Below are positions 49,597 to 51,501 of a DNA stretch of 64,000 nucleotides, piece after piece (position 1 is the first letter of the stretch; every line of letters begins with the position of its first letter). The position numbers and the translations under genes were made by a program. The notes below the pieces were generated by a model. The model saw only the letters and a list, made by a program, of their open reading frames with translations, searched no databases and had not been told where the DNA came from. This DNA comes from Bryobacteraceae bacterium CoA2 C42 (GTDB lineage Bacteria; Acidobacteriota; Terriglobia; Bryobacterales; Bryobacteraceae): positions 1 to 64,000 of the forward strand of contig JAINDL010000057.1 in NCBI GenBank assembly GCA_019931245.1. Reading direction: 5' to 3'.

Positions 49597-50175
49597 ATGA
49601 CTTCTATTGCAACTCAGCTCGGCGATGACGGCCAGACCAGCCTCGTTGGGGGCCAACGTGTTTCAAAGGGCGCCTTGCGCGTTGAGTCCTACGGCACGGT
49701 GGACGAATTGAACGCCGCGTTGGGTTTTGCGCGGTCGATTTGTAGCGACGAGGGGATCGCCACGGCGACGCTGGCGATTCAGCGGGAGCTGTTTCAGGTG
49801 GCGGCGGCGCTGGCGACGCCGGCCGAGGCGCGCAAGGGCCAGGCGCCGGTGACGCAGGCGATGGTGGACGGGTTAACGGCGCAGGTGCATGCGCTCGAGG
49901 CGGTGAGCGGATTGCTGAGCGACTGGTCGGTGCCGGGGGGCGACCCGGCGGGGGCGTTTTACGATCTGGCGCGGACGGTTTGCCGGCGGGCGGAGCGGTG
50001 TGTGGTGCGGCTGGGCGAGGAGGAGGAGTTGGCGCCGCACGTGCTGGCGTACCTGAACCGGCTGAGTGATCTGCTGTGGCTTTTTGGCCGGAAGCTGGAG
50101 GTGGAGGCTAAGGCGCAGGCGGCTTTGCGGGAGCTAAACGATAAGCCGGGGCCGCGCTGGTCGCGGGCCTGGTAG
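49597..50175 (+). CDS. Cob(I)alamin adenosyltransferase (PduO/ATR type)
   Basis: The enzyme adds the adenosyl group to cob(I)alamin, making coenzyme B12. The ATP motif LGDDGQTSLVGGQRVSKG, SYGTVDELNAALGFAR and the ending ...LNRLSDLLWLFGRK are the PduO-type signature; about 192 residues. The ATG at 49597 is preferred over the track's TTG. It follows DUF1501 by eight bases, yet its function is separate. It is 43 kb from the BMC genes and does not make them a B12-dependent system. Confidence 0.9.
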   Translation: MTSIATQLGDDGQTSLVGGQRVSKGALRVESYGTVDELNAALGFARSICSDEGIATATLAIQRELFQVAAALATPAEARKGQAPVTQAMVDGLTAQVHALEAVSGLLSDWSVPGGDPAGAFYDLARTVCRRAERCVVRLGEEEELAPHVLAYLNRLSDLLWLFGRKLEVEAKAQAALRELNDKPGPRWSRAW

Positions 50176-50229
50176 GGGTCGATAACACCTCGGCAAGGTG
50201 TAACGAAAAAATTACTTATTTACAGCCTC

Positions 50230-50258
50230 TTGCAATCCGTTCCGGGTCCCTATACACT
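50230..50258 (+). promoter_or_regulatory. Candidate promoter of the aromatic leader
   Basis: TTGCAA (50230-50235) and TACACT (50253-50258) with 17-base spacing. Transcription would begin near 50265, just before the leader ATG, so the leader transcript may be nearly leaderless. Confidence 0.5.
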
Positions 50259-50266
50259 AAGAGGAG

Positions 50267-50350
50267 ATGTCAGCCCCGGCGTACAGCTTTTCCTTCTTTC
50301 GATTTTGGCGCTATTGCCGCATCGAACGAGTGGCGTTGGCCCGGCGGTAG
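50267..50350 (+). CDS. Aromatic-rich attenuator leader peptide (27 residues)
   Basis: An ATG at 50267, directly preceded by AAGAGGAG, opens a 27-codon frame ending TAG at 50350. Codons 6-16 contain seven aromatic residues: Tyr, Phe, Phe, Phe, Phe, Trp, Tyr (AYSFSFFRFWRYC). Ribosome pausing on these codons when charged Phe/Tyr/Trp tRNAs are scarce would control downstream RNA folding and hence the DAHP synthase gene. Too short for the ORF track. Confidence 0.8.
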   Translation: MSAPAYSFSFFRFWRYCRIERVALARR

Positions 50351-50410
50351 GACTCGAAAGTTCTCAATCCCCCAAACCAACCCACTCCGAGGAGTGGGTT
50401 TTCGTGTTTT
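50328..50410 (+). terminator. Attenuator: antiterminator and rho-independent terminator
   Basis: AACCCACTC (50379-50387) pairs with GAGTGGGTT (50392-50400), a 9-bp stem with CGAG loop followed by TTCGTGTTTT: a terminator. The alternative is GAGTGGCGTTGG (50328-50339, inside the leader coding region) pairing with CCAACCCACTC (50377-50387): 11 base pairs with one bulged C. The two are mutually exclusive, as in trp/phe attenuators. Confidence 0.8.
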
Positions 50411-50451
50411 CTGGAGATCCAGTTTTAGTTTAGTTGAGGCAGGACAGACCC

Positions 50452-51501
50452 ATGATCATTTCGATGAAACTCCACAGCACCAAGGAAGATATTGAAGCCG
50501 TATGCGACCGCATCCGTCACTTCGGCTACAAGATACATGCCATTGAGGGAGAGGAGCGCTGCGTGATTGGCGTGGTCGGTGTTGGCGATGTCACCAACTG
50601 TCTCGAGTCGCTCGAGGCGATGCCGCAGGTGGAGAAGGCCGTGCGGATCTCGGCGCCCTACAAGTTTGTCTCGAAGGAGTACAAGGCGACGCCGACGGTG
50701 ATTACGGTGCGGACGCACGCCGGTGCGGTGGAGATCGGCGGCGATGAGTTCGTGATGATGGCCGGCCCGTGTTCGGTCGAAAACGAGAAGCAGATCATGG
50801 AGTCGGCCTACGCCGTTGCCGAGGCCGGGGCGAAGGTGCTGCGCGGTGGGGCCTTCAAGCCGCGGACCTCGCCCTACGATTTCCAGGGCATGGAGGGCGA
50901 CGGGCTGAAGCTGCTCGCCAAGGCGCGGGAGGCGACGGGCCTGGCGATCATCACTGAAGTGATGGCGGAAAAAGACGTCGAGCTGGTGGCCGAGTATGCG
51001 GACATCCTGCAGATCGGGGCTCGGAACATGCAGAACTTTTCGCTGCTCAAGCGTTTGGGATCGTGCGGGCGTCCGATTATGCTCAAGCGCGGCTTGAGCG
51101 CGCAGATTAAAGAGCTGCTGATGTCGGCCGAGTACATTGTGGCGCACGGGAACCCGAACATTATGTTGTGCGAACGGGGCATCCGGACGTTTGAGACGGC
51201 GACGCGGAACACGTGCGATATTACCGCGGTTTCGGTGCTCGATGAGCTGACGCATCTGCCGGTGGTGCTCGATCCGTCGCATGCCGTGGGCAAGCGCAGC
51301 CTGGTGCCGGCGTTGTGCCGAGCGGGAGTGGCGATTGGCGCGGACGGGTTGATTGTCGAAACGCATCCGTGTCCGGAGAAGGCGGTCAGCGACGGGGCGC
51401 AGAGCCTGACGCTTGATCAGTTCCGCAAGATGATGAAGGAGTTGGTGCCCTACATTGCCCTGTGGAAGAACTCGCGGACGGCGGACGCGATCGCTGTCTA
51501 G
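50452..51501 (+). CDS. 3-deoxy-7-phosphoheptulonate synthase (DAHP synthase, type I-beta)
   Basis: The enzyme makes DAHP from phosphoenolpyruvate and erythrose 4-phosphate, the first shikimate step. The N-terminal ~70 residues ([33 protein letters not shown]) are a ferredoxin-like domain that in relatives gives Tyr/Phe feedback. The barrel shows [51 protein letters not shown] and [12 protein letters not shown]. The ATG at 50452 has AGGAC upstream; the track's TTG is earlier. It follows the attenuator directly. Confidence 0.94.

Follow-up and report, generated by a model that had tools for sequence, protein, structure and literature searches.

The trpL and pheL leaders of enterobacteria combine a leader peptide with an antiterminator and a terminator that have one strand in common, and transcription stops there by intrinsic termination. 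Each senses a single amino acid of a terminal branch, and a 1:2 hairpin competes with the antiterminator; in attenuators of the leader-peptide type, switching is generally accepted to be kinetic. Both leaders are named in a paper that also summarizes, after Neshat et al. 2014, the leader AroR of the Corynebacterium glutamicum operon aroF (DAHP synthase); AroR contains Phe-Tyr-Phe codons and is reported there to respond to limitation of Phe, not of Tyr (PMC11802643). In Sinorhizobium meliloti trpL (rnTrpL/peTrpL), which senses Trp only, precedes trpE(G), and yields products that act in trans, the 5' end of the attenuator RNA is the leader ATG itself (PMC7298713), and leaderless leader ORFs are also known from Streptomyces (PMC8079986). 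For Acidobacteria, among other phyla, a survey of bacterial attenuators could link almost no candidate to a function (PMC2965389).

The locus described here lies in a window of 64,000 nucleotides (the whole stretch of DNA that was analyzed, part of contig C120 of a 6.07 Mb genome) from a member of the Acidobacteriota. Its aromatic codons, their spacing, the covariation of two helices, and constrained folding support what the first-pass annotation of the sequence had proposed, namely that the region ahead of the DAHP synthase gene is very probably a ribosome-mediated transcription attenuator responding to charged Phe-, Tyr-, and Trp-tRNA.

Like AroR as summarized in the source above, the locus places a leader peptide with aromatic codons ahead of a DAHP synthase gene, and ribosome stalling would raise transcription; unlike AroR, it brings Phe, Tyr, and Trp codons together and belongs to another phylum, a comparison made by description and not between the RNAs. 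Given the C. glutamicum aroR-aroF precedent, attenuation of DAHP synthase is itself not new. The leader peptide, the antiterminator and terminator built on a common strand, and intrinsic termination recall trpL and pheL, but the 1:2 competitor is not conserved here and the leader has no Shine–Dalgarno sequence in most relatives. The predicted near-leaderless leader finds its counterpart in the leaderless ORF of S. meliloti trpL, from which the locus differs in that system's Trp-only signal and trpE(G) target. The mechanism is thus known and of the trpL/pheL type, and what differs is the phylum, the joint Phe/Tyr/Trp codons, and the missing conserved 1:2 hairpin. The first-pass annotation named no described attenuator of this kind in Acidobacteriota, and our search of the literature and of Rfam release 15 yielded no description of this one, although the coverage of that search is incomplete and an earlier prediction from Acidobacteria is possible. 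Trp-rich leaders occur before trpE in other members of the phylum.

The leader ORF and its surroundings

The putatively regulated gene (50452–51498, on the plus strand, as are all stranded features below) encodes a type I-beta DAHP synthase (NF006421, TIGR01361) with an N-terminal FXD regulatory domain (PF18152) and a catalytic domain (PF00793); its sequence relatives in the PDB are 4grs, 1rzm, and 3pg9. We set the start at the ATG at 50452, and the ORF list also has an upstream TTG at 50434. The protein has its closest named relatives in Acidobacteriota, several of them labelled Bryobacterales, an order of the class Terriglobia, and one Candidatus Sulfopaludibacter. The gene upstream of the block, on the same strand as DAHP synthase, encodes a cobalamin adenosyltransferase. 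The feedback domain expected of the enzyme by the first-pass annotation is present in the window gene as the FXD domain, and double control by attenuation and allostery is plausible for this gene, whereas a few relatives keep the attenuator without an FXD match. In genus g55 (L080/L235, L238, L241), the DAHP synthase match begins only at residue 72, about 36 nt after the motif, and the FXD domain is apparently missing while the attenuator is retained.

Ahead of the gene, a leader ORF runs from an ATG at 50267 to a TAG at 50348–50350 and encodes the peptide MSAPAYSFSFFRFWRYCRIERVALARR, with seven aromatic residues within codons 6–16 of its 27 codons, just as first noted. Homologous leaders occur in relatives, where an ATG-started ORF ending within reach of the antiterminator arm was found at 128 of 129 aligned loci. 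These 128 leaders have a median length of 19 codons, and Phe, Trp, and Tyr make up 32% of their residues; the share is 8% in the two remaining frames and 11% in shuffled sequences. All of them contain Phe, 90% contain Trp, 94% contain Tyr, and 84% contain all three, frequently in a core of the form S-F-x-F/Y-R-F-W-x-F/Y. The element is thus a short ORF in which codons for the pathway's end products are abundant, and its translation is predicted.

The placement of these codons is as telling as their number. Across the 128 leaders, with positions counted from the first base of the antiterminator arm, aromatic codons lie between −39 and −15 and are nearly absent from −12 on, leaving a gap of ≈13 to 15 nt between the last of them and the arm. 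Such a boundary is what a ribosome reaching ≈13 nt past its A site would need, so that a ribosome stalled on any aromatic codon would leave the arm free. The first nucleotide of the leader stop falls at −17 to −1 from the arm or, in 24 leaders including that of the window, at +14 to +28, in which case the ORF runs through the arm; in the window, the 5' arm lies within the leader ORF just upstream of the stop. A ribosome at the stop would therefore cover the arm, although the position of the stop is variable, and in leaders where it is at −11 the ribosome would cover the first arm bases only.

A promoter of the form TTGCAA-N17-TACACT (50230–50258) precedes the leader. A strict consensus promoter scan did not report it in the window; it was recognized by its sequence and its conserved position in relatives, whose leaders are preceded by a TTG-type −35 and a TAnnnT −10. 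In 95 of 128 leaders, the −10 hexamer ends 8 to 10 nt upstream of the ATG, a spacing for which Streptomyces lividans, where the distance from −10 to start averages 6.3 nt, offers a comparison (PMC8079986). The transcript would accordingly begin ≈1 to 4 nt upstream of the ATG, making the leader probably near-leaderless. Shine–Dalgarno sequences are mostly lacking in the leaders (mean duplex energy −1.3 kcal/mol, 6% below −5), and the GAGGAG of the window directly adjoins the ATG, too close for normal use. At the DAHP synthase start of attenuator loci, the site is strong (mean −7.6 kcal/mol, 93% below −5).

Upstream of the promoter, and outside the attenuator proper, lies the palindrome ACACC-TCGGCAA-GGTGT (50185–50201). 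The dyad recurs at 26 of 128 leader loci, compared with 0.7% of shuffles; in 21 attenuator-bearing loci it lies 82 to 89 nt upstream of the leader ATG. This element could possibly be the site of a candidate regulator. Sites of the form ACACC-N7-GGTGT/GTGGT are also found at L085, L171, L191, L205, L254, L263, and other loci.

Helices competing for a common strand

Two helices follow from the sequence between the leader and the gene. The 5' arm of the antiterminator, GAGTGGCGTTGG (50328–50339), reads GAGTGG-C-GTTGG and pairs with the 3' arm CCAACCCACTC (50377–50387) in 11 bp with one bulged base. The 3' arm overlaps the 5' side of an intrinsic terminator (50379–50410) situated between leader ORF and gene, in which a 9-bp stem (50379–50387 with 50392–50400) closes a tetraloop as AACCCACTC-CGAG-GAGTGGGTT and is followed by the U-rich tail TTCGTGTTTT (50401–50410). 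The first-pass annotation had drawn both helices with these boundaries, and we recovered them unchanged; the U tract of the window is interrupted, and many relatives have TTTTTATTTT.

The antiterminator duplex averages −17.7 kcal/mol over 145 loci, compared with −11.3 kcal/mol when the upstream sequence is shuffled. Pairing and covariation were counted for each helix separately on an alignment of 100 sequences (A2). The antiterminator is paired in 91.7% of cells, compared with 36 to 49% when it is slid, and has 30 doubly changed cells where 11.0 are expected; the terminator is paired in 98.2% of cells, with 51 doubly changed where 17.0 are expected. For neither helix did any of 500 shuffles reach the observed count, although the shuffles ignore kinship. 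Because the helices have one strand in common, changes come threefold: GAGTGG/CCACTC/GAGTGG becomes GGGTGG/CCACCC/GGGTGG at four loci and GAGCGG/CCGCTC/GAGCGG at two. The common strand also explains why RNAalifold on 38 leaders recovered the terminator and not the antiterminator. An alignment of relatives had been put forward at the outset as one way to judge the model, and in it the aromatic codons and both stems are conserved and both helices covary.

A further hairpin, P1 (50298–50326), spans the Phe/Arg/Phe/Trp/Arg/Tyr codons. It had been noted as a small possible pause structure at 50300–50324; the hairpin is probably real but longer, with 50298–50303 pairing with 50321–50326 and 50306–50309 with 50316–50319. 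Per-sequence folding gives a mean z of −2.0 for the 42 nt preceding the arm (130 loci), and the Arg wobble base exchanges within the helix, forming A-U or G-C in 69 of 107 cases. Covariation is weak when P1 is counted as a fixed-register helix because loop and register vary, while the per-sequence folding supports it. Since P1 ends upstream of the antiterminator arm, it is likelier to be a pause hairpin than an anti-antiterminator. Compared with the genes of the window, the leaders prefer CGA for Arg (0.34 versus 0.09) and TTT for Phe (0.66 versus 0.32), preferences that may stem from the hairpin over these codons.

Predicted switching and rival explanations

From these elements we infer the following course of events. 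Transcription would start just upstream of the leader ATG, and a ribosome would load on the near-leaderless 5' end. A shortage of charged Phe-, Tyr-, or Trp-tRNA would stall the ribosome on the aromatic codons, and the arm at 50328–50339, ≈13 nt or more downstream, would remain free to pair with 50377–50387 as that strand emerges; the terminator would be blocked until RNA polymerase had passed, and DAHP synthase would be made from the antiterminated transcript. With all three tRNAs charged, the ribosome would proceed to the stop at 50348 and cover most of the arm, so that the terminator would form and the transcript would end at ≈50405–50410.

To compute this switch, we imposed ribosome footprints as folding constraints on a transcript ending in the terminator loop, with the stall placed at the Trp codon nearest upstream of the arm or, in leaders without Trp there, at the last aromatic codon. 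The median probability of the antiterminator was 0.88 with the ribosome stalled and 0.00 with it at the stop; for the window, the corresponding values were 0.94 and 0.28. In these computed folds, antiterminator and terminator exclude one another, and the arm is freed or masked by the position of the ribosome. The pre-terminator transcript was used because equilibrium folding of the full transcript proved uninformative as a test: on average, the terminator is the dominant structure whatever the state of the ribosome, and it usually wins when the ribosome is stalled, too (mean P(T) 0.90). The switch must therefore be kinetic.

Transcripts of 128 loci were also folded without a ribosome, and no conserved anti-antiterminator of the 1:2 type was found, which led us to reject a classical trp-type three-hairpin attenuator as a description of this family of leaders. 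In the untranslated transcripts, the arm finds an upstream partner at 63 of the 128 loci, at 60 it pairs with the terminator side, and close relatives disagree, so that the untranslated state is not conserved. In the window, the arm pairs upstream with a probability of 0.00 and with the terminator side with a probability of 0.91, and an untranslated leader is predicted to leave the locus ON. A wider role, in which one leader at the entry of the common pathway reads all three tRNAs, may sense translation itself through an ON state when untranslated, and may release a near-leaderless RNA or its peptide that acts in trans in the manner of rnTrpL/peTrpL, is conceivable but rather improbable.

Other readings of the same features deserve consideration. 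The GAGTGG and CCCACTC arms are conserved above what base pairing alone requires, as might be seen under riboswitch, TRAP-like, or T-box logic, with a ligand, a protein, or an uncharged tRNA switching the competing hairpins and an aromatic ORF that is incidental. That conservation, however, is accounted for by a single strand serving two helices, while the aromatic enrichment is limited to a single frame and ends roughly a ribosome footprint short of the arm, and the space from promoter to arm is almost wholly leader ORF. Rfam gives neither a T-box nor a riboswitch: at gathering score, leader and T-box families are absent from the whole window, which yields a single tRNA, and at E up to 10 the best matches in 50170–50470 fall below 14 bits and are unrelated. 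We therefore consider a switch of this kind very unlikely. Equally unlikely is a leader acting mainly on translation, through coupling or reinitiation at DAHP synthase or exposure of a ribosome site instead of termination. Short upstream ORFs have been proposed to increase translation via reinitiation (PMC4833913), but here the leader stop lies a median of 97 nt from the DAHP synthase ATG with the terminator in between, the gene has its own strong Shine–Dalgarno site (−7.6 versus −1.3 kcal/mol for the leader), and the partner of the antiterminator is the terminator strand and not a ribosome site. The location between two same-strand genes would also suit a terminator of the upstream cobalamin adenosyltransferase gene with a chance ORF ahead of it, yet a conserved promoter separates that gene from the leader ORF, the block accompanies DAHP synthase at well over 100 loci, and both the leader statistics and the three-way covariation exceed chance, which leaves this explanation with almost no weight. 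Ribosome-mediated attenuation is the reading that we retain.

Occurrence within the family, class, and phylum

We built a covariance model (R1) from 38 leaders found via the DAHP synthase protein, the window leader among them. R1 scores 102 bits at the window site and 16 bits at the next site in the genome, where it matches the terminator-like part only; the genome has no second strong R1 site, and inspection upstream of its trpE-like gene, a trpE/G-type fusion, revealed no trp attenuator. The model has matches in 150 of 200 family genomes (E ≤ 0.001) and in 108 of 250 class genomes (E ≤ 1e-4), including full-length matches in families f90 and f91, from which all seven loci inspected lead into a DAHP synthase-like start, MIISMK. 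When 145 R1 loci were compared with the DAHP synthase protein, the gene was directly downstream in 139, one ended with its contig, and five preceded trpE; in the 139, the gene starts ≤130 nt from the motif. A few of the loci represent the same contig twice. The attenuator block thus stands ahead of DAHP synthase in ≈130 relatives examined.

In a phylum-wide draw, the remaining matches were mostly terminator-only, and such weak matches in other families were left out as members. Eight full-length weak matches outside the class are real leaders with Trp-rich peptides, five before trpE and three before DAHP synthase.

Other leaders came to light in these surveys. Five loci from other families (L120, L122, L128, L130, L134) have Trp-rich leader ORFs and terminators before trpE, with peptides ending, for example, in NNYFWCWYRQGGWSAF or NRYYWWYR at the stop, and are likely trp attenuators. 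In family f18 (L123, L124, L126), a longer DAHP synthase leader containing CANWFWWSWRF follows the same logic with a Trp-heavy cluster. In two loci of family f2, in the same class (L121 and L136, from ≈1501), a peroxiredoxin-like gene is preceded by a leader ORF rich in Cys (MTTISNTFSFRCCCCC...) and by a hairpin resembling a terminator, possibly a cysteine attenuator.

About a quarter of family genomes have no R1 match, and the block is therefore dispensable. We inspected 19 DAHP synthase regions of the family that lack a match, together with one positive control (L266), which matched. Many of the 19 show a promoter-like sequence 6 to 9 nt before the DAHP synthase ATG and no visible leader, and a palindrome of the ACACC-N-GTGGT type occurs 86 to 100 nt before that ATG. 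Two regions (L251 and L258) retain only the terminator, and one (L248) only a leader-like ORF. This pattern, judged by inspection and not on a tree, points to a block that comes and goes as a whole between a single promoter module and the gene, and its presence and absence within one family constitute a natural test of attenuator gain or loss.

The analysis also leaves a sequence model that has no match in Rfam release 15. For one attenuator of the Acidobacteriota, conserved across much of its class, the target gene, the signal, and the mechanism can thus be named, each at the strength given above, and all three end products appear to gate an enzyme of the common pathway through a single leader.
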